DNA of 64,000 nucleotides from Hyphomicrobiales bacterium (GTDB taxonomy: Bacteria > Pseudomonadota > Alphaproteobacteria > Rhizobiales > Xanthobacteraceae): NCBI GenBank assembly GCA_017305715.1, contig JAFKKG010000018.1:283694-347693 (forward strand). The letters run 5' to 3'. The notes beneath the pieces are model-generated. The model was given only the letters and a program-made list of their open reading frames with translations, ran no database searches and was not told the DNA's origin. Each line of letters starts with the position of its first letter. Position 1 is the stretch's first letter. The translations under genes and the position numbers were made by a program. Shown piece by piece: positions 4,787-18,559 of the stretch.

Positions 4787-5206
4787 TTAGCGGCCGCGGG
4801 CCTTGCTCTGCAGCTCCGGAAATTTGGACGCCGCCTCCTGCACCTCTTCGGAGAAGTCGGCCATCTCCTGGACCTGGCGGATCTCGATGATCTCGTTTTC
4901 GGAAGCCGGGCACTTCTTGGCCCAGGCGATCGCCTCCTCGCGCGACTTGACGTCGATCATCCAGTAGCCGCCGAGCACTTCCTTGGCCTCGGTGAACGGG
5001 CCGTCGGTAACGATGGGCTTGCCGGACGAAAAGGAGACCCGCGCGCCCATCGACGGCGGATGCAACCCGTCGAGCGCGATCAGGATGCCGGCTTCATTCA
5101 GCGCCTCATTGTATTTCATCATCGCCGTGACGCGCTCAGGATCGAGTTGCACGTCCGGCGCCGCGGTCTCATAGCCAAGGGGAATCATCAGCATCATGAA
5201 TCGCAT
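4787..5206 (-). CDS. YCII-related DGPF domain protein
   Basis: This 139-residue protein starts MRFMMLMIPLG and contains DGLHPPSMGARV, TDGPFTEAKEVLGGYWMIDV and SREEAIAWAKKCP. These are the hallmarks of the DGPF subgroup of YCII domain proteins. The family is known to be encoded beside ECF42 sigma factors; its biochemical role is unresolved. Start ATG 5206 has AGGA upstream. It is the middle gene of the DGPF trio; its upstream 127-bp gap carries a palindromic repeat rather than a clear promoter, so it is probably transcribed from the promoter before 5750. Confidence 0.88.
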   Translation of the reverse strand: MRFMMLMIPLGYETAAPDVQLDPERVTAMMKYNEALNEAGILIALDGLHPPSMGARVSFSSGKPIVTDGPFTEAKEVLGGYWMIDVKSREEAIAWAKKCPASENEIIEIRQVQEMADFSEEVQEAASKFPELQSKARGR

Positions 5207-5286
5207 GGTGGGGGTCCTGTTGGGTTGCTGTCATTCGGGGGCATCCCGCAGGACTGAACCCGTAATCTCGACACGACAATCTCTGG

Positions 5287-5320
5287 ATTCCGGGTTCGGC
5301 TCTTCGAGCCGCCCCGGAAT
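5287..5320. repeat. Palindromic intergenic repeat between two DGPF genes
   Basis: ATTCCGGG (5287-5294) and CCCCGGAAT (5312-5320) form the outer stem, and GGCT/AGCC the inner stem around CTTCG. The surrounding CATCCCGCAG...GGAATGACG context is the layout of a repeat dispersed through Bradyrhizobium genomes. Confidence 0.5.
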
Positions 5321-5333
5321 GACGGGTGTGATT

Positions 5334-5750
5334 TTATCTCTTCCCGACCTGCGCGCGCAGGCGTTCTTCCTGATCGCGCAGTTCGGGGGTGAGGGCTTCG
5401 CCAAAATCCTCGGTCGAAAACACCTCGCGGATTTCGATCTCGGTGCCGCTGCCGAACGGCGCGCGCTTCATCCATTCGATCGCGTCATCGAGCGATTTGG
5501 CGTTGATCAGCCAGAAGCCGGCAACCAGATCGCTGGTCAGCGGAAACGGACCCTTGAGGGCGCTGGCCTGCCCGCTCTGGTATTTGACCCGGGCGCCTTT
5601 CGACGACGGATGCAGGCCCTCGCCGGCCTCGATCATGCCGGCCTTGACCAGTTCCTCGTTGAAATTACCCATCGCGGTCAACTCTTCCGTGCTGGGCATG
5701 ATTCCAGCCTCGGTATCCTTGTTGGCCTTCACAATCACCATGAATCGCAT
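5334..5750 (-). CDS. YCII-related DGPF-type protein (first gene of the trio)
   Basis: The protein has 138 residues and is a paralogue of the 4787-5206 product, with MRFMVIVKANKDTEAG, GEGLHPSSKGARV, LKGPFPLTSDLVAGFWLI and SLDDAIEWMKRAP. The DGPF loop is altered to KGPF. The start at ATG 5750 has GGAG about 9 nt upstream. It heads a minus-strand cluster (5750 to 4383), and an ECF42-like promoter lies 67 bp upstream. Function unproven; the family is linked with ECF42 sigma factors and stress responses. Confidence 0.87.
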   Translation of the reverse strand: MRFMVIVKANKDTEAGIMPSTEELTAMGNFNEELVKAGMIEAGEGLHPSSKGARVKYQSGQASALKGPFPLTSDLVAGFWLINAKSLDDAIEWMKRAPFGSGTEIEIREVFSTEDFGEALTPELRDQEERLRAQVGKR

Positions 5751-5816: not shown

Positions 5817-5843
5817 GACGAACCGCCGTTTACGGCGCCGACA
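5817..5843 (-). promoter_or_regulatory. Predicted ECF42-type promoter before DGPF cluster (site B)
   Basis: Reading the minus strand: TGTCGG (5843-5838), 17-bp spacer ending GGTT, then CGTC (5820-5817). The start codon at 5750 is 67 bp downstream. It shares TGTCKG-N14-GTTCGTY with the sites at 6952, 15747 and 18201, the last being in front of the ECF42 operon itself. Confidence 0.6.
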
Positions 5844-5895
5844 TGTCCCGAGAAATTATTTTGGAGATAATGGCGGCTGGAATTCGCTCCCCTAT

Positions 5896-6264
5896 CTAGA
5901 CCTGCTGCTTGACGAATTGCCCGTTCTCATAGGTCGCGCCGAAATAGACGTCGATGCGCCTGATCCGGTCGCCGGCGAAGCCGTAGGCCTCGGTGTTGCG
6001 AAAACTCTTTCCCTGTTTCGTGACGCAGCGGTAGGTGACGAACGCCGCGTCGCCCTCGACCATGATCCGTTCGAGATCCTGCCGCGCGATCCAGTCGCTG
6101 ACGCGCCAGCAACGCTCGAAATAGGTCGCCTTGTCGATCTCGTCGTCATAGGGGCTGGTGAAACGGAAATCATCGGCGAACGCGGCTTCGACGGCCGCGC
6201 GGTCGTTGTTCAGATAGGCGGCGAACAGGTTGCGGATGATTTCGTGCTTGCTGGTTGCAGCCAT
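5896..6264 (-). CDS. SnoaL-like / nuclear transport factor 2-fold protein
   Basis: A 122-residue NTF2-fold protein. It starts MAATSKHEIIRNLFAAYLNNDRA, has AFADDFRFTSPYDDEIDKATYFERCW, and ends in strands RCVTKQGKSFRNTEAYGF and RRIDVYFGATY. This matches SnoaL-like polyketide cyclase/isomerase-fold proteins, which are small alpha+beta barrels with diverse roles. It has a strong Shine-Dalgarno (AAGGAG), and its ATG directly abuts the GST stop codon (TGAATG), so it is translationally coupled to the GST. It is probably the second gene of an ECF42-controlled operon. Confidence 0.82.
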   Translation of the reverse strand: MAATSKHEIIRNLFAAYLNNDRAAVEAAFADDFRFTSPYDDEIDKATYFERCWRVSDWIARQDLERIMVEGDAAFVTYRCVTKQGKSFRNTEAYGFAGDRIRRIDVYFGATYENGQFVKQQV

Positions 6265-6918
6265 TCAGCGCTCCTTCGGCACCATGTTGAAATAGGGCTC
6301 GGCCTCCTTCAGCACGCGGGCGAACGACGGCCGGGTTTTCAGTCGCTCGAAATAGGCGGCGAGTTTTTTCTGCCCGTCGCCGAACGGCACCACCATGCTG
6401 CCATAGAACAGGGACGGCGCGGCGGCGCAGTCGGCAAGGCTGAAATCGCCGCCGGCTGCCCAGCCGCCGTCGGTCATCTGCTGTTCGATGATCGCGTACG
6501 ATGTGCGCAACTGCGCCCGCGCCTCCTCGGCGCCGTGCGGGTCCTTGCTGCCTTCGGGGCGCAGCCGGTCGAGCATGATCTTCTGCATCGGCAGGTGCAC
6601 ATAGAGATCGTAGAAGCGGTCGCGCAGCCGGGTCCGCAGCGCGCGGCCGGCATCATCGGGAATGAAGCGTGTCGGGCCGGGATAATGGCGGTCCAGATAT
6701 TCGACGATGATGCTGGATTCCGGAACCACCTCGCCCCGCGTATCGTCCTGCAGCACCGGAAATTTTCCGATCGGCCACAATTTGAGCAGCGCGGCGCGCT
6801 CGGCCGGGTTGCCGAGATCGACCAAATTCGGCGTGAACGGGGTGCCGTTCTCATAGAGCGCGATCAGCGCCTTCCAGCAGAACGAGGCGAGCGGGTGGAA
6901 ATGCAGCGTCAGAGACAT
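6265..6918 (-). CDS. Glutathione S-transferase family protein
   Basis: The protein has 217 residues. The N-terminal thioredoxin-like domain (residues 1-80) includes LHFHPLASFCWKALIALYENG, the PIGKFPVL cis-Pro motif and VPESSIIVEYLD, the gamma-glutamyl-binding E-S motif. The helical C-terminal domain has the ADCAAAPSLFYG N-capping-box region and ends in PYFNMVP. It conjugates glutathione to, or reduces, electrophilic substrates in the cytosol; the substrate is unknown. The start at ATG 6918 has CCGGAG upstream. It is the first gene of a pair with the SnoaL-like gene, divergent from an HxlR regulator, with an ECF42-like promoter 34 bp upstream. Confidence 0.9.
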   Translation of the reverse strand: MSLTLHFHPLASFCWKALIALYENGTPFTPNLVDLGNPAERAALLKLWPIGKFPVLQDDTRGEVVPESSIIVEYLDRHYPGPTRFIPDDAGRALRTRLRDRFYDLYVHLPMQKIMLDRLRPEGSKDPHGAEEARAQLRTSYAIIEQQMTDGGWAAGGDFSLADCAAAPSLFYGSMVVPFGDGQKKLAAYFERLKTRPSFARVLKEAEPYFNMVPKER

Positions 6919-6951
6919 GGGAACTCCGGATAGTTAAGGGCACGTCAGCAA

Positions 6952-6978
6952 GACGAACCGGGTTTTGGCCAACCGACA
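6952..6978 (-). promoter_or_regulatory. Predicted ECF42-type promoter before GST-SnoaL operon (site C)
   Basis: Minus strand: TGTCGG (6978-6973), a 17-bp spacer ending CGGTT, and CGTC (6955-6952), 34 bp before the GST start codon. Both elements and the GTT extension match site B exactly. Confidence 0.6.
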
Positions 6979-7027
6979 TTTGCTTTCGGCGTTGGCTGCT
7001 TTCGGCATTGGCCGTGGAGCCAACCGA

Positions 7028-7076
7028 TTGCAATTTGCAACTGGTTGCACCCTGGAACAACTGATGCAATATTGCA
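7028..7076. promoter_or_regulatory. Cluster of TTGCAA/TGCAATATTGCA palindromes, candidate HxlR binding sites
   Basis: TTGCAA occurs twice with one base between (7028-7033 and 7035-7040). A half-site GTTGCA follows (7044-7049), and a 12-bp perfect palindrome TGCAATATTGCA lies at 7065-7076, only 25 bp before the HxlR start. The cluster is in the HxlR/GST divergent region and fits an autoregulatory site for a dimeric winged-helix protein. Confidence 0.45.
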
Positions 7077-7100
7077 AGCAGTTTTTCCTGGGATGTCTGC

Positions 7101-7604
7101 ATGACCGACGACCGGCGCTCCGGCTGCCCGATCAACCTCACGCTGGAAGTGGTCGGCGACAAATGGAGCCTGCTCATCATCCGCGACATGATGTTCGGCA
7201 ACCGGCGGCATTTTCGCGAACTGCTGACCAAATCCGAGGAAGGCATCTCCTCCAACATCCTCGCCGACCGGCTGAAGACGCTGCTCGAGGCCGGGATCAT
7301 CACCCGCGAGGACGACCCCAGCCACAAGCAGAAGGGCATCTATTCGCTGACCGAACAGGGCATCGAGTTGCTGCCCATCCTCGCGCAGATGGCGGCCTGG
7401 GGTTACAAATATCTGCCGGTTTCCGAAGAACTCGGCATCCGCGCCCGGTTGCTCAGCGAGGGCGGACCGAAAATGTGGGCCGAGTTCATGGACGAATTGC
7501 GCCAGACGCATCTCGGCCATGTCAGGCGCAAGAAGGGGCTGTCGGTCGGCGAGCGCCTGCAGGCGGCGTATGAGCGCGTCGCCAAGCGCAACGACCCCGC
7601 CTAG
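7101..7604 (+). CDS. HxlR family winged-helix transcriptional regulator
   Basis: A 167-residue regulator with an N-terminal Cys (SGCPINLTLEVVGDKWSLLIIRDMMFG), typical of HxlR/YodB-type redox- or electrophile-responsive repressors. The winged helix follows: FRELLTKSEEGISSNILADRLKTLLEAGII, then the wing DDPSHKQKGIYSLTEQG. The C-terminal 50 residues form an additional helical tail. It is divergent from the GST-SnoaL operon. Conserved Cys9 may act as a sensor by analogy with YodB/HypR; that is inference. Confidence 0.88.
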   Translation: MTDDRRSGCPINLTLEVVGDKWSLLIIRDMMFGNRRHFRELLTKSEEGISSNILADRLKTLLEAGIITREDDPSHKQKGIYSLTEQGIELLPILAQMAAWGYKYLPVSEELGIRARLLSEGGPKMWAEFMDELRQTHLGHVRRKKGLSVGERLQAAYERVAKRNDPA

Positions 7605-7630
7605 CACATCCGTAAGAGTACGCAGCGACG

Positions 7631-7646
7631 CCCGTATGAATACGGG
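7631..7646 (+). terminator. Small hairpin after HxlR gene
   Basis: CCCGTA-TGAA-TACGGG, a perfect 6-bp stem with a TGAA loop, 27 bp after the HxlR stop. There is no T-run. The rest of 7605-7899 shows no convincing gene. Confidence 0.3.
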
Positions 7647-7899
7647 AACCCGACGCGACGCCCGTCGCCTGTCGTTGTGCCCATTGAAGTGCTTATGAAG
7701 AGAATTCGCTCAGCATATGAACGGCTTAAGAATCTCGCGATCAGTCACAACGCGGGGTTGATCTTATCGGGTCATCAATTGCGGCACCGAACTGCTTTAC
7801 CGTTGCGAAAGGGCAATCTGGAACTTTCATGTTGTCGCATCCAATTGCAGCGACTCTCTCCTTTCCGGTTTCGGAAACCAGCGCGCGCGGGGGCCCAAC

Positions 7900-9567
7900 G
7901 TGTTCAATCTGCAGAGCAACGCAAAGACCAGGAGCGCGCTCGCACAAGCGGCCGCCATCGACAAGTCGCAGGCCGTGATCGAGTTCAAGCTCGACGGCAC
8001 CATCGTCACGGCGAACGAGAACTTCCTGGCAGCCGTGGGCTACACGCTTGCGGAGATCCAGGGCAAGCACCACAGCATGTTCGTCGACCCGGCCGAGCGC
8101 GACAGCGCGGCCTATCGCGACTTCTGGGCCAGACTGAACCGCGGCGAATTCCAGGCCGCCCAATACAAGCGGGTCGGCAAGGGGGGCAGGGAAATCTGGA
8201 TCCAGGCGTCCTACAATCCGATCTTCGATAAGAACGGCAAGCCGGTCGGGGTGATCAAGTTCGGGACCGATATCACCGCGCAGAAAATCCACAGCATGGA
8301 GGACGCCGGCAAGATCGCGGCGATCGGCCGGGCCCAGGCCGTGATCGAATTCGACATGGACGGCACCATCGTCACCGCCAACGAGAACTTCCTCGGCGCC
8401 GTCGGTTACGCGCTGGATGAGATCAAGGGCAAGCACCACAGCCTGTTCATGGCGCCGCAAGATCGCGACAGCGCCGCATATCGCGAATTCTGGGCGCGGC
8501 TGAACCGCGGCCAGTACGATGCCGGCGAATACAAGCGCATCGCCAAGGGCGGCAAGGAGATCTGGATCCTCGCCTCCTACAATCCAATCCTCAACGAGGC
8601 CGGCAAGCCGTTCAAGGTCGTCAAATTCGCGACCGACGTCACTGCGCAAAAGCTCAAGGCGGCCGACAATGACGGCCAGATCGAGGCGATCAAGAAGTCG
8701 CAGGCGGTGATCGAATTCAACATGGACGGCACGATCCGCACCGCCAACCAGAATTTCTGCGATGCGCTTGGCTACGCGCTGCCGGAAATCCTGGGCAAGC
8801 ATCACAGCATGTTCGTCGATATGGGCGAACGCAACGCGCCCGAATACCGGGAGTTCTGGGACAGCCTCAATCGCGGCCAGTATCAGGCCGGGGAATACCG
8901 GCGGATCGCCAAGGGCGCCCGCGAGATCTGGATCCAGGCGTCCTACAACCCGATCCTCGACCTCAACGGCAAGCCGTTCAAGGTGGTGAAATACGCCGCC
9001 GACATCACCGCCCAGGCGATCGGCCGCAAGAAGGCCGAGAACGCCCGCGGCCTGATCGAGTCGGTGGCGGCCGGCAGCGAGGAAATGACCGCCTCGATCC
9101 GCGAAATCTCCGAGACCATGACCAAATCCAGGACCAATGCCGCGGCCGCGACCGCGCGGGTCGACGCCGCGGACGCCCAGGCGCAGAAGCTCAACACCGC
9201 CTCGCAGGCGATGAGCGGAATCGTCGAGCTGATCGGCAACATCACCGGGCAGATCAATCTGCTGGCGCTGAACGCCACCATCGAGTCGGCCCGCGCCGGC
9301 GAGGCGGGCCGCGGTTTTGCCGTGGTGGCCTCCGAGGTCAAGAATCTCGCCAACCAGGCCAAGCACGCGACCGACACCATCTCCAAGGAAATCGAACAGC
9401 TCAACGGCATTGCCGGCGATGTCGCCGGTTCGCTCACCGCGATCAAGCTCGCGATCGCCGAAGTCAACGAGTTCATCACTTCGACGGCGGCTGCCGTCGA
9501 GGAACAGAGCGCCGTGACGGCCGACATGTCGTCCAACATGCAGCGCGCCTCGGCCGAGTTGGCCTGA
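7900..9567 (+). CDS. Soluble methyl-accepting chemotaxis-type protein with three tandem PAS domains
   Basis: A 555-residue cytoplasmic receptor without transmembrane segments. Three PAS/PAC units repeat with a 122-residue period, each beginning QAVIEF-x-x-DGTI (residues about 24, 146, 268) and containing GKHHS(M/L)F, FWARLNRG or FWDSLNRG, and EIWI-x-ASYNPI. The C-terminal signalling domain (about 380-555) carries the conserved hairpin tip ([19 protein letters not shown]), which docks CheA/CheW. The likely start is GTG 7900, preceded by a G-rich stretch. PAS domains of this aerotaxis/DOS type often bind haem or flavin; ligand unknown. A strong terminator follows. Confidence 0.9.
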
Positions 9568-9626
9568 TACGACCCCCTCGTATCGCGCCGGACGGCCTTC
9601 GGCTCGTGGCGCCGAAGGACGGGCGT

Positions 9627-9665
9627 GGCCGGCACCGTTTTCGCGGAAGCGAAGCGGTGCCGGCC
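9627..9665 (+). terminator. Strong hairpin after PAS-MCP gene
   Basis: GGCCGGCACCG (9627-9637) and CGGTGCCGGCC (9655-9665) form a perfect 11-bp stem, followed by GTTCTT. It lies 60 bp after the stop codon. The long TTTTCGCGGAAGCGAAG loop can form a smaller inner hairpin. Confidence 0.65.
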
Positions 9666-9828
9666 GTTCTTCGGATGGGAAATTCGTGGTGATTTCGTCA
9701 TATTCGACCGAATCCTTCGCTCCCGCAGCATGACCTTTTGCGTTCCTGCGCCTAAGCTCTACCGTGCGGCGACGGTCCGCCGCCGCACACGCCGAAACTG
9801 AATCTGCGGATCGGGGGAGTGTCGCGCC

Positions 9829-10119
9829 ATGTCGGGAATGCTCGTCAGTCTGATCATCCAGATCATCAGCGGCGCCATCGGCGGAAATGTCGCCGCGGGA
9901 GCCGCCAAGAACATCGACCTCGGTACGCTTGGAAACACCATCGCCGGCGCCATCGGCGGCGGCGCCGGGGGACAGTTGCTCGGCATGCTGATTCCGCTGC
10001 TCGCCAATTCGGCCTCGACGCCGGATATCGGCAGCATCATCGGCCAGGCGGCCGGCGGCGGCGTTGCCGGAGCGGTCCTGACCGCCATCGTCGGTGCCAT
10101 CAAGAACAAGACCGCTTGA
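9829..10119 (+). CDS. Small glycine-zipper-like hydrophobic protein, unknown function
   Basis: A 96-residue protein rich in Gly, Ala, Ile and Leu. It has an N-terminal hydrophobic stretch (MSGMLVSLIIQIISGAIGG), repeated GAIGGGAGGQLLG and GQAAGGGVAGAVL glycine-zipper motifs, and a basic end (KNKTA). It could insert in or associate with membranes. A G-rich site (GGGGGAG) lies about 10 nt before ATG 9829. Small proteins of this kind are widespread in Bradyrhizobium and uncharacterised. No operon partner is obvious. Confidence 0.65.
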   Translation: MSGMLVSLIIQIISGAIGGNVAAGAAKNIDLGTLGNTIAGAIGGGAGGQLLGMLIPLLANSASTPDIGSIIGQAAGGGVAGAVLTAIVGAIKNKTA

Positions 10120-10271
10120 GATATCTGCGATCGTGATCGGGACGCCGTGGCGCCTCGACCCGGATCCGCGCATTGCGCGGCCCGGGCACAGGCTTTGTCG
10201 TGCGTGCGGGGGGACACCAAGCGGGGCATCGGCTATAGGAGCGCAAAGCCCCAGCACACGGATCCCCGACC

Positions 10272-11060
10272 ATGGCCCTGCCTCCACAAAAAACAGCTCT
10301 CGTCACCGGCGCCGCGCGCGGCATTGGGCTGGCGACGGCCAAACGGTTTCTCGCCGACGGCTGGCGGGTGGCGCTGCTCGATATCGAGCGCGAATTGCTG
10401 GACGGTGCGGTCGCGGCACTGGCAAACCCCGACCATACGCTGGCGCTGCCTTGCGACGTCTCGGATGCCGACGCGGTGGCATCCGCGATGGCGCGCGTGA
10501 GCCAGCGTTTTGGACGGCTGGATGCGCTGGTCAACAATGCCGGGGTTGCGGTGTTCGCGCCATTGCTCGAGACATCGGACAAGGACTGGAACCGGGTGCT
10601 CGCGGTCAACCTCACCGGCCCGTTCATCTGCACAAAGGCGGCCGCGCCCCTGATGCGCGAACACGGCGGCGGCGCGATCGTCAACATCACATCCATATCG
10701 GCGGTGCGCGCCTCGACGCTGCGCTCGGCCTACGGCACCAGCAAAGCCGGCCTGGCACATCTGACAAAACAGCTCGCGGTCGAGCTGGCTTCGCTCGCCA
10801 TCCGCGTCAACGGCGTGGCGCCCGGTCCGGTCGAGACGGCGATGGCCAAGGCGGTCCATACGCCGGAAATCCGCGCCGACTATCACGACGCCATCCCGCT
10901 CAACCGCTACGGCCTGGAAGAGGAGCTCGCGGAAGCGATCTTCTTCCTGTGCAGCGATCGGGCGAGCTACATCACCGGGCAGATCCTCGCCGTCGACGGC
11001 GGTTTTGACGCCGCCGGCATCGGCCTGCCGACGTTGCGCGGCGAGCGGCGCAATGGCTGA
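10272..11060 (+). CDS. Short-chain dehydrogenase/reductase (SDR)
   Basis: This 262-residue classical SDR has the cofactor motif TGAARGIG (TGxxxGxG) near residues 12-19, and NNAGV. The catalytic Ser lies in NITSIS, and Tyr-x-x-x-Lys is visible as YGTSK. It also has the PGPVETAM segment and C-terminal DGGF. It oxidises or reduces a hydroxyl/carbonyl using NAD(P); the substrate is not predictable. An acidic residue after the second strand (LLDIE) suggests an NAD preference. ATG 10272 follows an intergenic region without a strong ribosome site. It is convergent with the cobC-cobS unit. Confidence 0.9.
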   Translation: MALPPQKTALVTGAARGIGLATAKRFLADGWRVALLDIERELLDGAVAALANPDHTLALPCDVSDADAVASAMARVSQRFGRLDALVNNAGVAVFAPLLETSDKDWNRVLAVNLTGPFICTKAAAPLMREHGGGAIVNITSISAVRASTLRSAYGTSKAGLAHLTKQLAVELASLAIRVNGVAPGPVETAMAKAVHTPEIRADYHDAIPLNRYGLEEELAEAIFFLCSDRASYITGQILAVDGGFDAAGIGLPTLRGERRNG

Positions 11061-11080
11061 CGTTCAACTTCTCTCCCTCT

Positions 11081-11100
11081 CTCCCCGCAAGCGGGGCGAG
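11081..11100. terminator. Bidirectional hairpin between SDR and cobC genes
   Basis: CCCCGC (11083-11088), AA, GCGGGG (11091-11096), flanked by CT/GAG, sits in the 41-bp gap between two convergent genes. The CTCTCC...GCGGGG context resembles the larger CTCCC-type repeats at 24847 and 54841. Confidence 0.5.
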
Positions 11101-11101
11101 G

Positions 11102-11680
11102 CTAAGGAAGCCACCAGCGCTGGTTGACCGCCACCACGCGCCAGCCACCATCGAGCCGGTCGATCCGCGTCAGCGACAACGGATCGATCACGAAGCGCAG
11201 CGCATTGTCGGGTTCTAGATCCAGCGCGATCGCAAGCACCGCGCGGATGGTGCCGGAATGCACGACCAGTATCGCCTCGCCCGCGGGTAAACCCGCCAAG
11301 CCATCGCGGGCGCGGGCGATCTGGTCGACAAAGCTTTCGCCGCCGGGCGGCCGGTTGCCCGCCGGCGATTCCCAAAACGCCTGATAGGCGGCACCGGGTT
11401 CCATCGTGAGATCATCGTGCCGCCGCCCGGTCCAGGCACCAAAATCCTGCTCGCGGAAATTGGCCTCCTCCACCGGATCGAGCCCCAACGCAAGCGCGGT
11501 TTCCCGTGTCCGCCGCGCCGGACTGCAGAGCGCGCGCGCACCGGACGGCAATTTCGCTTTGAGCGCGGCAAAAGCCACCGCATGACTGAGATCGGCCGGC
11601 GCATCCGGGCCGTGAATCACCCCGCGCGGTCCATCGACCGGCGCGTGCCGGATCAGCCAGAACTTGGTTTCGCCGCTCAT
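11102..11680 (-). CDS. cobC: Histidine phosphatase family protein, alpha-ribazole phosphatase-like
   Basis: A 192-residue phosphoglycerate-mutase-fold phosphatase. The catalytic N-terminal motif is LIRHAPVDG (His nucleophile after Arg), and EQDFGAWTGR supplies the conserved acid region. VVHSGTIRAVL has the second catalytic His. CobC removes the phosphate from alpha-ribazole 5'-phosphate late in cobalamin synthesis. The assignment is supported by the 4-bp overlap (ATGA) with cobS upstream and by cobT across the divergent promoter. The longer upstream frame is the shadow of cobS; ATG 11680 is the real start. Confidence 0.82.
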   Translation of the reverse strand: MSGETKFWLIRHAPVDGPRGVIHGPDAPADLSHAVAFAALKAKLPSGARALCSPARRTRETALALGLDPVEEANFREQDFGAWTGRRHDDLTMEPGAAYQAFWESPAGNRPPGGESFVDQIARARDGLAGLPAGEAILVVHSGTIRAVLAIALDLEPDNALRFVIDPLSLTRIDRLDGGWRVVAVNQRWWLP

Positions 11681-12429
11681 GCGAGCCGCGCCGCCAGCAG
11701 CACGAGGATTGCGGTCTCGGCGACCTGCTCGGCACCGCCCAGAACATCGCCGGTCTGGCCGCCGATCTGCCGCTGCGCCAGCCATGCCATGCCGAGGCCG
11801 CTCAAGCCGGCCAACAGCGCCGCGAACAGCGCGTCGGTCCATGGCAGCGACAGCAACGCCAGAATCACCGCAAGGCCAGCGGCGATGCCCGCGGTCGCCG
11901 CATCGGGCTGGCCGGCATTGCGGGCAAGGCCATCAGTGCGCGCGTAAGGCAGCTTCACCGACATGAAGGGCAGGATGCCACGGCCGAGCGCATGCGCGGC
12001 GATCAGGCTTTGCACGACATAGCCATCCGGGATCGCGGCCAGCGCCGAAAGCTTGGCGGCGAAACTCACCAGCAGGATCAGCGCGCCATAGGTGCCGAGC
12101 CTGGAGTCGCGCATGATCTCGAGCTTGGCCGCACGGTCGCGGCCGCCGCCGAATCCGTCGGCGACGTCGGCCAGGCCGTCCTCGTGCAACGCGCCGGTCA
12201 GGATCGCACCTGCCCCCAAAGCCAGCGCGGCGGCAGCGAGTTCGGGCACGCCAAGGGAACGCAAGCCGAGACAGACCAAACCTGTCACTGCGCCGATCAG
12301 CGCGCCGACGACTGGAAACATCCGGTGCGCGCGCACGAAATTGCCGGGCATCGGGCCTTGCGGATGCGGCATCGGCCACCGCGTCAGAAACGCAACCGCC
12401 GTTTTGAAATCGTCGAGCCATTCATTCAT
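11677..12429 (-). CDS. cobS: Adenosylcobinamide-GDP ribazoletransferase
   Basis: The protein has 250 residues and is an integral membrane protein with several hydrophobic segments. It joins activated cobinamide with alpha-ribazole to make adenosylcobalamin (or its 5'-phosphate). Typical motifs are FLTRWPMP at the N-terminus, GALHEDGLADVADGFGGG (the Mg-binding acidic motif), MRDSRLGTYGA, and GGQTGDVLGGAEQ near the C-terminus. It overlaps cobC by 4 bp and is divergent from cobT. No cobalamin riboswitch was recognised in the 122-bp gap to cobT, which instead holds a palindromic repeat. Confidence 0.95.
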   Translation of the reverse strand: MNEWLDDFKTAVAFLTRWPMPHPQGPMPGNFVRAHRMFPVVGALIGAVTGLVCLGLRSLGVPELAAAALALGAGAILTGALHEDGLADVADGFGGGRDRAAKLEIMRDSRLGTYGALILLVSFAAKLSALAAIPDGYVVQSLIAAHALGRGILPFMSVKLPYARTDGLARNAGQPDAATAGIAAGLAVILALLSLPWTDALFAALLAGLSGLGMAWLAQRQIGGQTGDVLGGAEQVAETAILVLLAARLA

Positions 12430-12464
12430 GCTATCGCCTGCGGAATCGTCTTGTTTGTTTTGAC

Positions 12465-12508
12465 GCGTTTTCTTGATGCGAACCGGTACCCACTTCGCTC
12501 GAAAACGC
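12465..12508. repeat. Palindromic repeat in the cobS/cobT divergent region
   Basis: GCGTTTTC (12465-12472) and GAAAACGC (12501-12508) are perfect 8-bp arms around an ACCGGT-type core (GCGAACCGGTACCCACTTCGC). This has the plan of a mobile palindromic repeat common in Bradyrhizobium; a related element is at 18151-18195. Confidence 0.55.
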
Positions 12509-12551
12509 TGTAGGTTCGGCGATCCGCCCGAAGTTGGTTTTAAGGAATCGC

Positions 12552-13568
12552 ATGCCCTTCGACAGTCTAGACGACATCCGCGCCTTCTGTCGCGACTTGC
12601 CGAAGGGCGACGCGCGCGCCACTGAAGCTGCGATGTCGCGCCAGCAGCATCTGACCAAACCGCCGGGGAGCCTCGGCCGGCTGGAAGAGCTTGCAGTCTG
12701 GCTGGCGCACTGGCAGAGGCGCGAATCGCCGCGGCTCGATCGCGTCTCGGTCGCCGTGTTCGCTGGCAATCATGGCATCGCCAGCCGCGGCGTCTCGGCC
12801 TATCCGTCCGATGTCACCGCGCAGATGGTGGCGAATTTTGCGGCTGGCGGCGCGGCCATCAACCAGATCGCCAAACTTGCCGGCGCCGATCTGCGCGTGG
12901 TGCCGATCGAGCTCGACCGGCCGACGCGCGATTTCACCGTGGCTGCCGCGATGGATGCCGACGAGTTCCTGCACGCCGTCAATCTCGGCTACCATACGGT
13001 GCCGGAGGATTGCGATCTGCTGGCGGTCGGCGAGATGGGCATTGCCAACACCACGACGGCCGCCATGCTGTGCGCCGCGTTGCTCGGCGGCGGCGCGGCG
13101 CGCTGGGCCGGCCGCGGCACCGGCGTCGACGATGCGGGGCTGGCGCGCAAGCACGCAGCGATCGATGCCGGCCTGCAATTTCATCGCGGCATTTGCGGCG
13201 ATCCCCTGGCCGTGGCGGCAGCCCTCGGCGGCCGTGAACTGGCCGGCATCGCCGGTGCCGTGCTCGCGGCGAGGAAACACGGCATTCCGGTTCTGCTCGA
13301 CGGCTTTGTGGCGACATCCGCCGTGCTGCCGCTCACGCGCCTCCATCAAGGCATGCTCGATCATTGCCGCGCCGGACATGTCTCGGCCGAGTCCGGGCAT
13401 CGCGATCTCTTGCGCGAACTCGGTCTGGTTCCGCTGCTCGACCTCGGCATGCGGCTCGGCGAGGCCTCCGGCGCCGGCGTTGCGATTCTGCTGCTGCGCG
13501 CGGCGCTGGCCTGCCACACCGGAATGGCGACTTTTTCCGAGGCCGGGGTTTCGAACGCGGACAACTAG
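12552..13568 (+). CDS. cobT: Nicotinate-nucleotide--dimethylbenzimidazole phosphoribosyltransferase
   Basis: A 338-residue cytosolic enzyme that forms alpha-ribazole phosphate from NaMN and 5,6-dimethylbenzimidazole. The motifs seen are LTKPPGSLGRLEELA near the N-terminus, VFAGNHGIASRGVSAYP, EMGIANTTTA, a GRGTG loop, and LLDLGMRLGEASGAG at the C-terminus, including the expected catalytic Glu region. ATG 12552 has AAGGA 7 nt upstream and is preferred over an in-frame TTG at 12534. It works with cobS and cobC on the other strand. Confidence 0.95.
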   Translation: MPFDSLDDIRAFCRDLPKGDARATEAAMSRQQHLTKPPGSLGRLEELAVWLAHWQRRESPRLDRVSVAVFAGNHGIASRGVSAYPSDVTAQMVANFAAGGAAINQIAKLAGADLRVVPIELDRPTRDFTVAAAMDADEFLHAVNLGYHTVPEDCDLLAVGEMGIANTTTAAMLCAALLGGGAARWAGRGTGVDDAGLARKHAAIDAGLQFHRGICGDPLAVAAALGGRELAGIAGAVLAARKHGIPVLLDGFVATSAVLPLTRLHQGMLDHCRAGHVSAESGHRDLLRELGLVPLLDLGMRLGEASGAGVAILLLRAALACHTGMATFSEAGVSNADN

Positions 13569-13632
13569 CGAAACCTTGCCGTCTGCGTCGGAGTTGCTTA
13601 ACTGACAGGGCTCGAGGACGAAGGAGCCGCGC

Positions 13633-14070
13633 ATGCGAAGGGCGGTCATCAAGGCAATTCTTGTCACGGCAACATTATGCGCCGTCGTTGCGCCGGCTCG
13701 GGCCGAAATACGCATTCTCGCCAGCCCCGGCGGGCAGGTCGGCCCGTTTCTCGACCTGTTCGATCGCGTTCGCGAGTCCGGCGAACGGGTCGTGATCGAC
13801 GGGCCGTGCCTGTCGGCCTGCACGCTGGTGCTGAGCACGGTGCCGAGCGAGCGCATCTGCGTGACGCGCCGCGCGGTGCTCGGCTTCCACGCCGCGCGGT
13901 CGATCGACCGGCGCGGCCGGATGTATGCCGAACCGGAAGCGTCGCAGGCGGTGCTGGCGGCCTATCCGCCAGCGGTGCGGGGCTGGATCAGCCGCCGCGG
14001 CGGATTGACGTCGCGGCTGTTGTTGCTGCGCGGGCGCGAACTCGCCGCGATTTATCCGTCGTGCCGGTGA
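13633..14070 (+). CDS. Secreted protein with ClpP/SDH-like signature, unknown function
   Basis: A 145-residue protein with a clear Sec signal peptide (basic MRRAVIK, hydrophobic core, APARA cleavage site around residues 22-24). The mature part has LASPGGQVGPFLDLFDR, VIDGPCLSACTLVLST and VLGFHAAR. The PGG and SACT motifs resemble the oxyanion and serine regions of ClpP-fold (SDH-type) periplasmic proteins. The ribosome site AAGGAG lies 8 nt before ATG 13633. It is 64 bp after cobT, so it may be read from the same transcript, but there is no evident link to cobalamin. Confidence 0.68.
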   Translation: MRRAVIKAILVTATLCAVVAPARAEIRILASPGGQVGPFLDLFDRVRESGERVVIDGPCLSACTLVLSTVPSERICVTRRAVLGFHAARSIDRRGRMYAEPEASQAVLAAYPPAVRGWISRRGGLTSRLLLLRGRELAAIYPSCR

Positions 14071-14127
14071 GGAATGGCAGGGTTGGCAAAGCGTCCGCGT
14101 GCCCACCAATCCGTGCTCGATGAAGAT

Positions 14128-14160
14128 GGTGGGCACGGCGCAAGAGCGCCTTTGCCCACC
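14128..14160. terminator. Hairpin between convergent genes, dispersed repeat
   Basis: GGTGGGCA (14128-14135) with TGCCCACC (14153-14160), and inner GGCGC/GCGCC, make a two-part stem with an AAGA loop. The GTGCCCACC motif also occurs at 14099-14107 in the same gap. This is the form of a common Bradyrhizobium intergenic repeat and could terminate both flanking genes. Confidence 0.5.
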
Positions 14161-14174
14161 CTACGAAGTCACGC

Positions 14175-14585
14175 TTAATCATCCAGCGGGCTGTTGACCA
14201 TCCAGGGCGTGCCGAACTTGTCGATGCACATGCCGAACCCGTTGGAGAAGAAGGTCTTGCCGAACGGCATGGTCACGGTACCGCTGTCGGAAAGTTGCCG
14301 GAAGCGCACCGCGGCATCGCCGGGATTCTCGACCTGCAGCGAGACCGCGAAGCCCTGCGGCGGATTGAAATGGCCGGGAGGGGCATCGGAAGCCATCAGC
14401 ACCTCGCCATCGATCGTGATCTTGGCGTGCATCACCTTCTGCTTCCACTCCGGCGGGGTGGGCATGTCGGGCGGCGCGCTTTCGTAACGTATGATCGCCT
14501 CGATCCGCGCGCCAAGCACCTTCTGGTAATAATTCAACGCTGCTTCGCAATTGCCGTTGAAGAAAATATAGGGATTGACCTGCAT
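14175..14585 (-). CDS. VOC family protein (PhnB/glyoxalase-bleomycin resistance-like)
   Basis: A 136-residue protein of the PhnB/YjdN type. It starts MQVNPYIFFNGNCEAALNYYQKVLGA, and includes WKQKVMHAKITIDGEVLMASD, QGFAVSLQVE and MPFGKTFFSNGFGMCIDKFGTPWMV. This is the paired beta-alpha-beta-beta-beta vicinal oxygen chelate fold. Members bind metals or small electrophiles; the reaction is unknown. ATG 14585 has GGAG 7 nt upstream. It follows the SRPBCC gene on the same strand by 116 bp and may be the third gene of the DoxX-SRPBCC-VOC unit controlled from 15747-15773. Confidence 0.88.
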   Translation of the reverse strand: MQVNPYIFFNGNCEAALNYYQKVLGARIEAIIRYESAPPDMPTPPEWKQKVMHAKITIDGEVLMASDAPPGHFNPPQGFAVSLQVENPGDAAVRFRQLSDSGTVTMPFGKTFFSNGFGMCIDKFGTPWMVNSPLDD

Positions 14586-14701
14586 CGTTGTCTCCTGGGG
14601 GTTATCGATACTTTCTTGTCTGCTCCGGGATAACGTACCGGATGATGCTTCGCATCGCCAGCAGAAGGCTGCACTCCGCCCGGGACACGTTTCTTCCCCG
14701 G

Positions 14702-15238
14702 TTACTTCTCCGTGAGCTTCTTCAGATTGGCAAGACCGGCCTCGAAATCCCGACCGATCATGCGGTCGAGGTTCATGAACACCTGCATCACCCTGGACAT
14801 GAATACGGCGGGCCCGGTCATCGTCCAGGTCAGATCGGTAGTATCGCCCTGCGGCAGCATTGTGAACTCGGCGGTGTTGTGACCTTCGAACGGCTTGAAG
14901 AAATCGAGCTTGATAACGATCTTCGAGGGCACCGCGGTTTGCAGGATTTCCATGCGGCCGGACCCGACATTCTTGTTGCCGTCCCAGGCATAGACCGCGC
15001 CCGTGCCGCTGTCGGCGCCGCTATAGGTGCGCTTCAGGTCAGGGTCCTTGTCCTCGTAAGGCGACCAGCTGCGCCATTGGCGAAAATCGTTGATCAGCGG
15101 GAATATCCTTTCCGCCGGCGCCTTGATGCGGATCGCGCGCTGCACGCGCAGCGTATCGGACTTCGTCGTGGCAAGGATCAGCACGGCGGCGATGGCGATC
15201 GCCAGCACGATGGCGACGATGGCTATGATCTCGAACAT
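14702..15238 (-). CDS. SRPBCC family protein with N-terminal membrane anchor
   Basis: A 178-residue protein. Residues 1-25 form a hydrophobic anchor (MFEIIAIVAIVLAIAIAAVL). The rest is a START/Bet v1-like SRPBCC domain: IRIKAPAERIFPLINDFRQWRSWSPYE, GTGAVYAWDG, DLTWTMTGP. SRPBCC proteins bind hydrophobic ligands in a deep pocket. The start at ATG 15238 has a GGAG site. It is 37 bp after the DoxX stop, so the two are very likely co-transcribed. Confidence 0.85.
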   Translation of the reverse strand: MFEIIAIVAIVLAIAIAAVLILATTKSDTLRVQRAIRIKAPAERIFPLINDFRQWRSWSPYEDKDPDLKRTYSGADSGTGAVYAWDGNKNVGSGRMEILQTAVPSKIVIKLDFFKPFEGHNTAEFTMLPQGDTTDLTWTMTGPAVFMSRVMQVFMNLDRMIGRDFEAGLANLKKLTEK

Positions 15239-15275
15239 GTCAGACTCCGTAAAGACTCATGATGGACGATTCAAG

Positions 15276-15704
15276 TCAGCGGCGGAAGGGAAGCAGATTG
15301 CGCAGGTCCGGATCGCGCAGCCAAAGCCCGCCCCATGCCATCACGCCGAGGTAAAAGCCGAACAGCGTGTGGGAGAATAGCGGACTGTCGATCCGGACAT
15401 GGGAAGCCATCGCGCCGCCGAGATAACCGGTGAGCAGGATGGCGCCGAGGATCGACGTCGGCGGCACCGAATAGAGCACGGTGCAGATGATGGTGATGAT
15501 GCCGAGGCTGCGCGCCAGCGTCTCGCTGGAGCCATAGCCCATCTTGTCCATCGTTTCCGTGACGACCGGCCACGGCACCAGCTTGATGGCGCCGTCGAGC
15601 AGCAGGAACACGATGACCAGACCCGACAGAACGCCACCGGTCCAGCGCGCGGGTCTGGAAATGCCGGCGTCCCGGCCGGCTATACTTTCGGTGAAAATCG
15701 TCAT
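15276..15704 (-). CDS. DoxX-like family membrane protein
   Basis: This 142-residue protein has four predicted hydrophobic segments. The DoxX family hallmarks are present: GGVLSGLVIVFLLLDGAIKLV, a MGYGSSETLARSLGI segment, SILGAILLTGYLGGAMASHVR, and a C-terminal Trp-rich helix. DoxX-like proteins are quinone- or thiol-redox-linked inner-membrane proteins of poorly known function. ATG 15704 has CGGAG upstream and is preferred to the in-frame TTG at 15722. It is the first gene of the DoxX-SRPBCC(-VOC) unit, with an ECF42-like promoter 43 bp upstream. Confidence 0.83.
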   Translation of the reverse strand: MTIFTESIAGRDAGISRPARWTGGVLSGLVIVFLLLDGAIKLVPWPVVTETMDKMGYGSSETLARSLGIITIICTVLYSVPPTSILGAILLTGYLGGAMASHVRIDSPLFSHTLFGFYLGVMAWGGLWLRDPDLRNLLPFRR

Positions 15705-15746
15705 TGTCGGCTCCGTCGGCAAGTGAGTGGTGAGGCTCCGTCACAA

Positions 15747-15773
15747 GACGAACGAGGGAAACCCAAACAGACA
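15747..15773 (-). promoter_or_regulatory. Predicted ECF42-type promoter before DoxX-SRPBCC operon (site D)
   Basis: Minus strand: TGTCTG (15773-15768), a 17-bp spacer ending TCGTT, and CGTC (15750-15747). It is 43 bp before the DoxX ATG. It differs from the other three sites only in T for G at position 5 of the -35 element; the GTTCGTC block is identical to sites B and C. Confidence 0.55.
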
Positions 15774-15890
15774 GGGGACAGATTATTTTTCTCATGAGCC
15801 TGCATGATCGGCAGCCGGACGCCGGCCGTGGATATATCCAGGCGGATTTGCCCCGCTTGCCGCCACCGGGAGCGCGGGTATATTACGCCG

Positions 15891-16370
15891 ATGGCTGACA
15901 GCTCCCCCGATCTGAAAGCATTTTTAATCGCCACGCCCTTCTTTGGCGGCCTCTCGGACGCAAGCCTTGATCTATTGGTTTCCATGCTGGTCGAGCGCCG
16001 CTTCGAAGCCGGCGCCACGGTCGTGGCGGAAGGCGAACAGGGGCGCTCCATGTTCGTGGTTCACTCCGGCCAGTTGGTGGTGAGCAAGCGGCTCGATTCC
16101 GGGCGCATCATGCGGATGTCGGCGCTCGAGCCGGGGGATTTCTTCGGCGAGATGACGCTGATCGAAATGCAGAACCGCTCGGCCACCGTCGTCGCGGAAA
16201 ATCCGACCGTGCTCTACGAACTCACGGCGCGCGACCTCTACAAATGCTACAAGGCCGACATCCATGCCTATGTGATGGTGATGCAGAATATCAACCGCGA
16301 ACTCTGCCGGCGGCTGCGTCGCGCCGACAGCCGCATTGCCGAACTGCAAAAGCTTCACGCGGATCAATGA
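15891..16370 (+). CDS. Cyclic nucleotide-binding domain protein (no DNA-binding domain)
   Basis: A 159-residue protein made almost entirely of one cNMP-binding domain: LIATPFFGGLSDASLDLLVSML, FEAGATVVAEGEQG, MFVVHSGQLVV, and the phosphate-binding cassette region LEPGDFFGEMTLIEMQNRSATVVA. The F-G-E and R-S-A positions fit a functional pocket. The C-terminal helix (MQNINRELCRRLRRADSRIAE) is the dimerisation-like helix of Crp proteins, but there is no helix-turn-helix. It may therefore act through protein contacts. A membrane-free adenylate cyclase lies at 29403-31193. ATG 15891 is chosen because the upstream extension is not family-like. Confidence 0.82.
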   Translation: MADSSPDLKAFLIATPFFGGLSDASLDLLVSMLVERRFEAGATVVAEGEQGRSMFVVHSGQLVVSKRLDSGRIMRMSALEPGDFFGEMTLIEMQNRSATVVAENPTVLYELTARDLYKCYKADIHAYVMVMQNINRELCRRLRRADSRIAELQKLHADQ

Positions 16371-16481
16371 CGCCAGGTCACCTGTATCAGTGAGCGGGCG
16401 CGACCTCCCGACAGGAGGGGTGGAATTGCCGATGCCGGCCCTGATCCACTTAAACTCATCACCTTCCAATGCGGTGACGCG

Positions 16482-17753
16482 CTACTTCCCCGCCTTCGCG
16501 CCGCGCGTGCTGTCGCGCATCAGGCGGTCGAGGTGCATGCGGATATGGGCCGCTTCGGCCGAGGTGTTGGCCAGCGCGATGGCGCGGTCGAAGGCGATGC
16601 GGGCTTCGTCGTTGCGTCCGAGCTGCATCAGGAACGCGCCGCGCACGCCGAAATAATGGAAATAATTCGACAGCCGCGCCGCCAGCGGTTCGATCATGTC
16701 GAGCGCGGCCTCGGGGCCCTTCACCTTGGATACCGCGACGGCGCGGTTCAACGTCACCACCGGCGACGGCTGCATGATTTCGAGCGCGCCGTACAACAGA
16801 TCGATCTGGGTCCAGTCGGTATCCGCAGGCGTTTCGGCGCGGGCATGCAGAGCCGCGATCGCGGCCTGGATTTGATAGGGCCCGCTGCGGCGATGGCGCA
16901 TCGCCTTGTCGATCAGCGCCAGCCCTTCCGCGATCATCTTGCCATTCCACTTCGAGCGATCCTGGTCGTCGAGCAGGATCACCGCGCCGTCCGAATCAAA
17001 GCGGGCCGCGGCGCGCGCGTGCTGCAGCAGCAACAGCGCGGTCAGCCCCATGATCTCGGGCTCGCTTTGGAACAGCCGCAGCAACAGCCGCGCCAGCCGG
17101 ATCGCCTCCTCGCACAGCGGGCTGCGGATCTCGGCGGTGTCGCCACTTGCGGAATAACCTTCGTTGAAGACGAGATAGATCATCGCGGCGACCGCAGCCA
17201 GCCGTTCGGTGCGCTCGACCGCGCCCGGGGTCTCGAACGGAACATCGGCGTCCGCGACGCGCGCCTTGGCGCGGGTGATGCGCTGTTCCATCGCGGCTTC
17301 CGAGACCAGGAAGGCGCGCGCGATCTGCTTGACCGTCAGTCCCGAGACGATGCGCAACGCCAGCGCGATCTGCTGGGTCGCCGGCAGGTCGGGATGGCAG
17401 CAAATGAACAGCAGCCGCAGAATGTCGTCGCGGTAGTGCGAGCCGTCGAGCCGCTCGGCCAACTGCTCCTCGGCGTCACCGGTATCGGATATCGCGTGAT
17501 CGTCCTCGGGCAGCGGTTCCTGCTTGCGGCCCCGCCTGATATCGTCGATCGCGACGTTGCGGCCGACCATGATCAGCCATGCCGCAGCGTCGCGCGGCGG
17601 ACCGTTTTGCGGCCAGCTCTTCAGCGCGCGCAGGCAGGCGTTCTGAAAAGCCTCCTCGGCGGTATCGAGATTGCGGAAATAGCGCAGCAGCGCGCCGACC
17701 GCCTGGGGACGCGCCGAGGTCAGCGCGTTATCGATCCAGGCGGTATCGGTCAT
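16482..17753 (-). CDS. ECF42-type RNA polymerase sigma factor with C-terminal extension
   Basis: The protein has 423 residues, more than twice a usual ECF factor. Sigma region 2 (about residues 5-80) includes YFRNLDTAEEAFQNACLRAL and AWLIMVGRNVAIDDIRR. Sigma region 4 (about 115-170) contains LRLLFICCHPDLPATQQIALALR, SGLTVKQIARAFLVSEAAMEQRI. A long helical, TPR-like C-terminal region follows, with the group signature IYLVFNEGYSAS. These features and the overlapping DGPF gene define the ECF42 group, which lacks a classical anti-sigma factor and is thought to be controlled through its extension. The start overlaps the DGPF stop by 4 bp. Motifs for one promoter type precede its operon and three other units here. 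Confidence 0.93.
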   Translation of the reverse strand: MTDTAWIDNALTSARPQAVGALLRYFRNLDTAEEAFQNACLRALKSWPQNGPPRDAAAWLIMVGRNVAIDDIRRGRKQEPLPEDDHAISDTGDAEEQLAERLDGSHYRDDILRLLFICCHPDLPATQQIALALRIVSGLTVKQIARAFLVSEAAMEQRITRAKARVADADVPFETPGAVERTERLAAVAAMIYLVFNEGYSASGDTAEIRSPLCEEAIRLARLLLRLFQSEPEIMGLTALLLLQHARAAARFDSDGAVILLDDQDRSKWNGKMIAEGLALIDKAMRHRRSGPYQIQAAIAALHARAETPADTDWTQIDLLYGALEIMQPSPVVTLNRAVAVSKVKGPEAALDMIEPLAARLSNYFHYFGVRGAFLMQLGRNDEARIAFDRAIALANTSAEAAHIRMHLDRLMRDSTRGAKAGK

Positions 17754-18118
17754 TTCGTGACACTCCCGGGCGTGAAATGGCCGACCGGACGGATCTCATA
17801 GGCGCCGCCGGGATTGGCCTTGCCGAGATCGCGCGCGACGTCGAGCGCCTCGTCGAGATTCTTGCAGTCGACGACATAGAAGCCGAGCAACTGCTCCTTG
17901 GTCTCGGCAAAGGGGCCGTCGAGCACGACCGGCGGATCGTCCTTGCGCAGCGTGGTCGCCGCCGTGGTCGGCAGCAGCCGCGCCACCGGGCCGAGCCGAC
18001 CCTGTTTGGTCAATTTATCCTGCACCGCGGCCAGTCTGGTCATGACCGCGGCATCCTGTTCGTTGGACCAGGACCCGACCATGTCTTCGTCGTGATAGCA
18101 GAGGATGGCGTACAGCAT
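17750..18118 (-). CDS. YCII/DGPF domain protein, partner of ECF42
   Basis: A 122-residue DGPF protein: MLYAILCYHDEDMVGSWSNEQDAAVM, TTLRKDDPPVVLDGPFAETKEQLLGFYVVD, LDEALDVARDLGKANPGGAYEIRPV. The intact DGPF motif and the 4-bp overlap with the sigma gene are the standard ECF42 arrangement. The reaction is unknown; a sensory or detoxifying role is proposed in the literature. Start ATG 18118 with GGAGA about 11 nt upstream. It heads the operon, and the leader from the predicted promoter (18201-18227) contains a palindromic repeat. Confidence 0.92.
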   Translation of the reverse strand: MLYAILCYHDEDMVGSWSNEQDAAVMTRLAAVQDKLTKQGRLGPVARLLPTTAATTLRKDDPPVVLDGPFAETKEQLLGFYVVDCKNLDEALDVARDLGKANPGGAYEIRPVGHFTPGSVTK

Positions 18119-18150
18119 GCGACAGGCATCTCCGTTGTTCTCTTAGAGCG

Positions 18151-18195
18151 GCATGATCTCATCGGAAAACCGGAGCCCACTTTTCCGGATCATGT
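18151..18195. repeat. Palindromic repeat inside the ECF42 operon leader
   Basis: GCATGATC (18151-18158) and GATCATGT (18188-18195) flank GGAAAACCGG and CCCACTTTTCC, which also pair. This RIME-like palindrome is a well-known repeat type in rhizobial genomes. It lies between the predicted ECF42 promoter and the DGPF start codon, so it would be transcribed as a leader hairpin. Confidence 0.6.
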
Positions 18196-18200
18196 CTAGG

Positions 18201-18227
18201 AACGAACGAGTATGCCCGGAGCCGACA
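18201..18227 (-). promoter_or_regulatory. Predicted autoregulatory promoter of the ECF42 operon (site A)
   Basis: Minus strand: TGTCGG (18227-18222), a 17-bp spacer ending TCGTT, and CGTT (18204-18201). It lies 83 bp before the DGPF start. It has the same -35, spacing and GTTCGT block as the sites at 5817, 6952 and 15747. Autoregulation is usual for ECF factors. Confidence 0.58.
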
Positions 18228-18400: not shown

Positions 18401-18455
18401 GGATAGCTGGAGGATAGCTGGAGGATCGCTGGAGGATCGCTGGAGGATCGCTGAA
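18401..18455 (+). repeat. 11-bp tandem repeat, five copies
   Basis: The unit GGAT(A/C)GCTGGA repeats five times without gaps: two copies with A, two with C, and a last copy ending GAA. It lies between the small ORF at 18265-18381 and the ghrA-like gene. An 11-bp period is about one helical turn, so the copies face the same side of the DNA. Confidence 0.85.
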
Positions 18456-18559
18456 ATCGCGGCGCATCAACGGCCATTTTGATGGCTCGAAACTAGTGGA
18501 ATGGATCGACCTGTTGTGTGATAGGGGTCACGCCGCGTGGCAAGACGAAGGAAATGACG

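Follow-up and report, generated by a model that had tools for sequence, protein, structure and literature searches.

Sequence evidence for a probable ECF42 sigma factor regulon of detoxification-type genes and its predicted reach across a Hyphomicrobiales genome

The genes considered here lie on a 64,000-nucleotide stretch of DNA from a Hyphomicrobiales bacterium (assembly GCA_017305715.1, contig JAFKKG010000018.1, positions 283,694 to 347,693), referred to below as the window. Four transcription units on its minus strand, one of which encodes an extracytoplasmic function (ECF) sigma factor of group ECF42, here called type I or ECF42-I, are each preceded by the same promoter-like motif. A preliminary description of this DNA took the four units for a local regulon of the sigma factor. 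The units, each with its predicted promoter first, are as follows.

18201..18227, minus strand: predicted ECF42-I promoter of the DGPF-ECF42 operon, TGTCGG-N17-CGTT, 82 bp 5' of the DGPF start
17750..18118, minus strand: DGPF/YCII protein, first gene of the sigma operon (Pfam YCII, 7e-21)
16482..17753, minus strand: ECF42 sigma factor type I (Pfam sigma70 r2, r4_2 and DUF6596)
15747..15773, minus strand: predicted ECF42-I promoter of the DoxX unit, TGTCTG variant, 42 bp 5' of the DoxX ATG
15276..15704, minus strand: DoxX-like membrane protein (Pfam DoxX_2, 9e-18)
14702..15238, minus strand: SRPBCC protein (Pfam Polyketide_cyc2)
14175..14585, minus strand: VOC/glyoxalase-fold protein, perhaps the last gene of the DoxX unit, with a 116-bp gap 5' of the gene (Pfam Glyoxalase)
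6952..6978, minus strand: predicted ECF42-I promoter of the GST-SnoaL unit, 33 bp 5' of the GST ATG
6265..6918, minus strand: glutathione S-transferase (GST) family protein (Pfam GST_N_3, 4e-14)
5896..6264, minus strand: SnoaL_2-like protein, its start adjoining the GST stop (Pfam SnoaL_2)
5817..5843, minus strand: predicted ECF42-I promoter of the YCII cluster, 66 bp 5' of the YCII-A ATG
5334..5750, minus strand: YCII-A (Pfam YCII, 9e-14)
4787..5206, minus strand: YCII-B (Pfam YCII, 4e-21)
4383..4748, minus strand: third open reading frame (ORF) of the YCII cluster, YCII assignment not confirmed (no Pfam match)

The pattern TGTC(G/T)G-N14-GTTCGTY, the exact pattern of what follows, matches the window four times and no more, always on the minus strand. 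When the window was shuffled 100 times with its dinucleotides preserved, an average of 0.01 matches was obtained, with a maximum of one. The positions and orientation given in the preliminary description are exact. Pfam matches were also obtained for the gene families that it had named (GST, SnoaL, DoxX, SRPBCC, VOC and DGPF) and for the sigma regions with DUF6596. Of its three YCII/DGPF genes in one cluster, YCII-A and YCII-B are confirmed; the third ORF has neither a Pfam match at E 0.001 nor an NCBIfam match. The sigma factor itself is a protein of 423 amino acids in which Sigma70_r2 and Sigma70_r4_2 are the sole sigma regions, followed by a C-terminal extension of ECF42 type, which has about 200 residues (DUF6596 at 184-285, 3e-34). 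ECF42 extensions are rich in TPR repeats; the Pfam matches of this protein at E 0.001 include no TPR model. The DGPF/YCII gene overlaps the sigma start, and an operon with such a gene is typical of ECF42 factors.

The motif was followed into 80 named ECF42 loci, the best 80 of 355, most of them from Bradyrhizobium, with others from Nitrobacter, Rhodopseudomonas, Mesorhizobium and further genera. These loci contain 109 exact sites, every one on the strand of the sigma gene, against no control matches. The GTT of the exact pattern was ruled out as an essential element, since it varies (GAT, GCC, ATT) while the flanking hexamer and the CGTC stay constant; the core of the motif is TGTCGG-N17-CGTC. 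At a spacing of 17 this core occurs 189 times on the sigma strand and three times on the opposite one, and the other spacings between 10 and 25 give 0-39 and 0-17 matches, respectively. The highest of these counts, 39 on the sigma strand at each of spacings 13 and 24, are spread thinly (1-4 per 20-nt bin, with the fullest bins 1.3-1.8 kb 5' of sigma). The N17 sites, by contrast, cluster at -420 (34 sites) and just after the sigma gene. With CGTY as the -10 element the core is present in 79 of the 80 loci, and in 67 of the 76 loci with enough upstream sequence a copy lies 300-700 nt 5' of the start of the sigma gene. A motif site soon 3' of the sigma gene was also seen in many other ECF42 loci. 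Among more distant type-I orthologues from other families, five of six were examined (77, 72, 68, 67 and 55% identity, the sixth, at 46%, being left out); the core stands 417-444 nt before the sigma gene in all five, as GGTCGG in one of them, and again just after it in four.

The preliminary description had proposed looking for the motif upstream of orthologues. Homologues at 55% identity or more were collected from the 80 loci and the best motif match within 170 nt upstream of each was recorded. Within one mismatch, the motif precedes the first genes of units, namely DoxX in 39 of 43 cases, GST in 22 of 30, YCII-A in 14 of 21 (20 of 21 within two mismatches) and DGPF in 54 of 78. It is rare before genes inside units (SRPBCC 4/35, VOC 1/52, SnoaL 3/23, YCII-B 4/23) and does not occur within that limit before orthologues of the third ORF (0/13) or before sigma (0/80). 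Eight window ORFs that served as controls, which were taken from the ORF list and not individually verified as genes, gave none at 183 places; three further queries had no homologue. In some loci an inner gene stands directly behind a site, as SRPBCC does in L079, L081 and L084 and VOC in L083. Presence before unit-first genes and rarity before inner ones is, as far as sequences can tell, the behaviour of a promoter.

The predicted regulon that these sites describe is not confined to the window. In the organism's own 7.45-Mb genome the exact pattern has nine sites, against none for the reversed control, and each of them faces an ORF that begins 33-109 bp further on. Four of the nine belong to the units of the window; the others stand before ku, a PhnB-type VOC gene and genes for DUF2277, AHSA1 and RibD_C proteins. 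A relaxed core, TGTCGG-N17-CGTC-N-T, which takes in a T frequent two bases after CGTC, has 12 sites against one control, five of them among the exact nine. Three of the seven new sites precede fitting genes, a second PhnB-type VOC (contig C38), DUF899 and a further YCII gene (both on C44); the other four in this genome do not. A total of 12 transcription units can thus be predicted genome-wide, nine by exact and three by relaxed sites; the conservation checks cover the genes behind exact sites, the three relaxed units being drawn from this one genome. Only four of the 12 lie in the window, and the remainder, ku included, are on five other contigs. A purely local regulon, as first described, is ruled out because five of the nine exact sites stand outside the window. 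Widening the genome scan to two mismatches gave no discrimination (220 matches, and 243 for the control pattern) and was abandoned. A one-mismatch site (TGTCCG; L021, G000 C49:174732-174758) lies just 5' of an ORF which, judged by eye, is similar to thioredoxin reductase; this site and the one-mismatch sites in L018 are excluded from the unit count.

Across 72 genomes of the same genus, the own one included, the exact pattern has 322 sites against 36 controls, which answers favourably the suggestion of the preliminary description that related genomes be scanned. A type-I sigma orthologue is found at E<=1e-100 in 71 of the 72, in three of them solely as a split or partial match. In G009 (L344) the gene is split into two matches, with core sites still before and after it. 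Another genome, G065, has no exact site; three of its ten core matches (three controls) carry an altered GTT and stand before the sigma operon, DoxX and YCII-A.

One hundred sites were sampled from the listed same-genus matches, down to the second site of G007; four sites before the sigma operon were skipped and four other such sites kept. Of these hundred, 84 precede families that recur in the sample or that also follow a site in the named loci or in the own genome. They are ku (19), YCII (18), a second GST family (9), AHSA1 (7), VOC (7), MFS (5), DGPF (4), DoxX (3), SnoaL_3 (3), DUF2277 (3), GST (2) and, once each, SnoaL, SRPBCC, RibD_C and a protein of beta-lactamase fold that by eye resembles those of L055 and L096. 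Two more fall inside a long ORF of a single family. The other 14 were left unclassified, although one of them (L235) looks by eye like a ku promoter. The MFS transporter gene has the motif 32-34 bp 5' of its start in five relatives (L209, L225, L237, L251, L278) and is absent from the genes behind sites found in the window's own genome.

The sample also bears on the G/T allowed at position 5 in the preliminary description. As a general freedom this is weak: TGTCTG makes up nine of the 100 sites, one of them before an MFS gene, a family recurring at intergenic sites, and two inside the long ORF. The TGTCTG before DoxX is nevertheless supported, as the orthologous site reads TGTCTG in four closely related strains, while strains further away have TGTCGG there. 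Could the matches be a product of chance or of coding sequence? Some are indeed coding, those with TGTCTG inside the long ORF of one family, in two relatives, being examples. As a general explanation, however, such an artefact is excluded by the shuffle, reversed-pattern, strand, spacing and control-ORF tests, and conservation refutes it for the four window sites; we give it practically no credence.

A more serious question is which sigma factor reads the motif. The sites could be genuine ECF promoters that are shared by several ECF42 paralogues or by another sigma factor with a preference for TGTC and CGTC, such as ECF41. The own genome does encode three ECF42 (DUF6596) sigma factors, and the promoter of an ECF41 factor, RpoE9 of Sinorhizobium meliloti, is likewise of the form TGTC...CGTC, but as TGTCACA (PMC6180224, as far as the available part of that report goes). 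The paralogues, however, have promoter sequences of their own. Orthologues of paralogue II (the closest 30 of 59 loci) have TGTCGT-N14-(G/A)TTCGAC before the YCII-sigma operon in 26 of 30 loci. Those of paralogue III (the closest 30 of 37) have (T/C)GTCGA-N14-(G/A)TTCGTC before their own operon in 13 of 30, with no match to this pattern in the other 17. When positions 5, 6 and the -10 element were left partly free for type I, G stood at position 6 in 53 of 57 matches (three A, one C). The three paralogues accordingly have distinct barcodes before their operons, TGTCGG/CGTY for the window type, TGTCGT/CGAC and TGTCGA/CGTC. A combined pattern for barcodes II and III has one to five sites per genome in 16 same-genus genomes, 44 in total against four controls, and by their coordinates at least 17 of the 44 precede the paralogues' own operons. 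The sites around the type-I sigma gene, moreover, stand on its strand. Since type I carries TGTCGG and the paralogues carry other barcodes, the motif would belong to the window's own sigma factor, and we consider sharing among several sigma factors improbable.

The ku promoter requires separate treatment. The closest ku copy was taken from each of 30 of 60 genomes, picked by protein match and not by motif. Upstream of these 30 genes the motif is exact in 14, with one mismatch in 11, two in three and three in one; the last, with four mismatches, is counted as having none. TGTCGGAAC is found in 28 of the 30 loci and CGTCGGAAC in one more, and CGTCTT follows at the ECF42 spacing in 29. Within the same stretch lies GGAAC, the -35 element of the general stress sigma factor EcfG, which is present before 29 of the 30 ku genes and at none of 80 non-ku sites. 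These might therefore be EcfG promoters that happen to resemble the ECF42 motif, ku being no ECF42 target at all. In Sphingomonas melonis, a Ku gene is listed as depending on EcfG, and the EcfG promoter is given as GGAAC-N17-20-GTT (PMC6599016, part available). The other two ku copies of the own genome have GGAAC-N16-GTT (L325, C1) and the canonical EcfG form GGAAC-N16-CGTT (L326, C36); TGTCGG-N17-CGTC was not found in the upstream stretch read for either. The latter copy thus argues in the other direction as well, in that a canonical EcfG promoter there comes without the ECF42 core. In addition, GGAAC is followed by CTT at N17 in 29 of the 30 loci, unlike the published GTT, so that the GTT/CGTT -10 of EcfG promoters at N16-20 is lacking in these. 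Both TGTC directly before GGAAC (28/30) and CGTCTT (29/30) have been kept, and we know of no requirement of EcfG for TGTC in front of GGAAC or for CGTCTT at the ECF42 spacing. An EcfG promoter alone is thus the unlikelier account, although one to be taken seriously; the ku promoter is probably an ECF42-I promoter with an overlapping EcfG element.

Taken as a whole, the sites are clearly best read as an ECF42 regulon because the motif is conserved before orthologues, absent at control ORFs and paralogue-specific in its barcode. Independent support comes from RpoE10, the ECF42 factor of S. meliloti, for which three promoter sequences, all TGTCGG-N17-CGTC, are listed in Table 1 of PMC6180224, a source available in part; two of them stand before operons that rise on RpoE10 overexpression and the third before its own YCII gene. 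Several observations weigh on the other side. The open pattern found no match in 23 of 76 type-I loci, and four of its 57 matches lacked the G at position 6; the core search then fitted 67 of 76. In G041, a genome of the same genus, no type-I sigma was detected at E<=1e-100, and yet core sites persist before YCII-A, VOC and DUF2277 homologues (three of six, with one control), a point that also favours reading by several sigma factors; with an assembly of 160 contigs and 95% completeness, the gene may not be truly lost. Beyond the genus, no genome-wide enrichment of the exact pattern is seen in 15 ECF42-bearing (DUF6596) genomes (eight sites, six controls), nor in 33 genomes without ECF42 (nine, 11 controls). 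As nearly every genome within the genus has the sigma factor, a comparison of motif and sigma across the order offers little contrast. Several target families were assigned by domain alone. Finally, the rpoE10 operon itself is not raised by RpoE10 overexpression, and the motif there overlaps the mapped start (PMC6180224, same part). With these points included, we infer that the regulon, with its own sigma factor as first described, is supported by the conserved motif and the paralogue barcodes, and that ECF42-I very probably transcribes its own operon, the three neighbouring units and the eight further predicted units from TGTCGG-N17-CGTC/T promoters.

The mechanism would then run as follows. 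ECF42-I would bring RNA polymerase to these promoters, with TGTCGG at -35 recognised through its region 4 and CGTC at -10 through its region 2. It would drive its own DGPF-sigma operon together with the YCII cluster, GST-SnoaL and DoxX-SRPBCC (perhaps with VOC), the five exact-site units elsewhere (PhnB-type VOC, AHSA1, RibD_C, DUF2277 and ku) and, with relaxed sites, the second PhnB-type VOC, DUF899 and the additional YCII gene. Its activity may be gated by the C-terminal extension instead of an anti-sigma factor, perhaps with a YCII/DGPF partner. This suggestion follows from a review, available in part, according to which the extension of the Streptomyces venezuelae ECF42 factors is essential, control of ECF42 by protein interaction is proposed and a neighbouring YCII protein is suggested as regulator; that part names no partner of ECF42 factors (PMC8999054). 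The target families GST, VOC, SnoaL, SRPBCC, DoxX, DUF899 and Ku point to a stimulus of reactive or oxidising molecules, an insult that would call for small-molecule detoxification and end-joining repair.

Some features of the locus may be recorded at this point. A cNMP-binding (Crp-like) protein is encoded on the plus strand at 15804-16370, between the ECF42 gene and the DoxX unit. By eye, short tandem repeats (CGATCCTCCAG-like) occur at about 18410-18465, 5' of the sigma operon, and the intergenic region 5207-5333 between YCII-A and YCII-B looks palindromic and may be a dispersed repeat.

A more far-reaching proposal, which we advance tentatively and with somewhat less than even confidence, is that in Bradyrhizobium ECF42-I controls a damage response spanning the genome, in which small-molecule detoxification is coupled to DNA end joining. 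In this proposal the ECF42 -35 TGTCGG and the EcfG -35 GGAAC overlap at ku, so that two sigma factors share one promoter, and the paralogues are kept apart by position 6 of the -35 element (G, T or A) and by the third -10 base. With a dozen predicted units, mostly conserved in the genus, the regulon names the genes to assay and hints at the threat that the system meets. As one genome has three paralogues whose barcodes can be told apart, sigma-promoter specificity becomes open to single-base swaps, and the sharing of one site by two stress sigma factors can be studied at ku.

The closest known system is that of RpoE10, which, like the window factor, has a C-terminal extension, a gene 3' of a YCII gene and promoters of the form TGTCGG-N17-CGTC. 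Overexpression of RpoE10 raises six genes; four genes in two operons, with glyoxalase or hydrophobic-ligand domains, rise at least two-fold (PMC6180224, in the part available). The glyoxalase-like and hydrophobic-ligand-binding proteins recall the families predicted here. We take the hydrophobic-ligand-binding proteins to be perhaps of the SRPBCC type. The six induced genes contrast with the 12 units predicted here, which include GST, SnoaL, DoxX, DUF899, DUF2277, RibD_C and ku. The claim of novelty made in the preliminary description is therefore tempered by a precedent with the same core; in the sources available, in part, we found none of GST, SnoaL, DoxX and ku described as ECF42 targets, the primary ECF42 papers on Streptomyces and Pseudomonas lying outside the search. 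In Streptomyces venezuelae, ECF42 factors are said to control mainly autoregulated DGPF operons through a -35 of TGTCGA type. This differs from the one paralogue with a broad predicted regulon and the three differing barcodes found here. The presence of several ECF42 paralogues in one genome (Sven_0747, Sven_4377 and Sven_7131) is common to both, and ECF-10, the ECF42 factor of Pseudomonas putida, has been linked to oxidative-stress and antibiotic phenotypes (both PMC8999054, part available). With the EcfG regulon of alphaproteobacteria the present one shares ku, a target there and a gene with GGAAC in its promoter here (PMC6599016, likewise in part); it departs from that regulon in the lack of GGAAC at its non-ku sites and in the CTT, not GTT, of the ku promoter.

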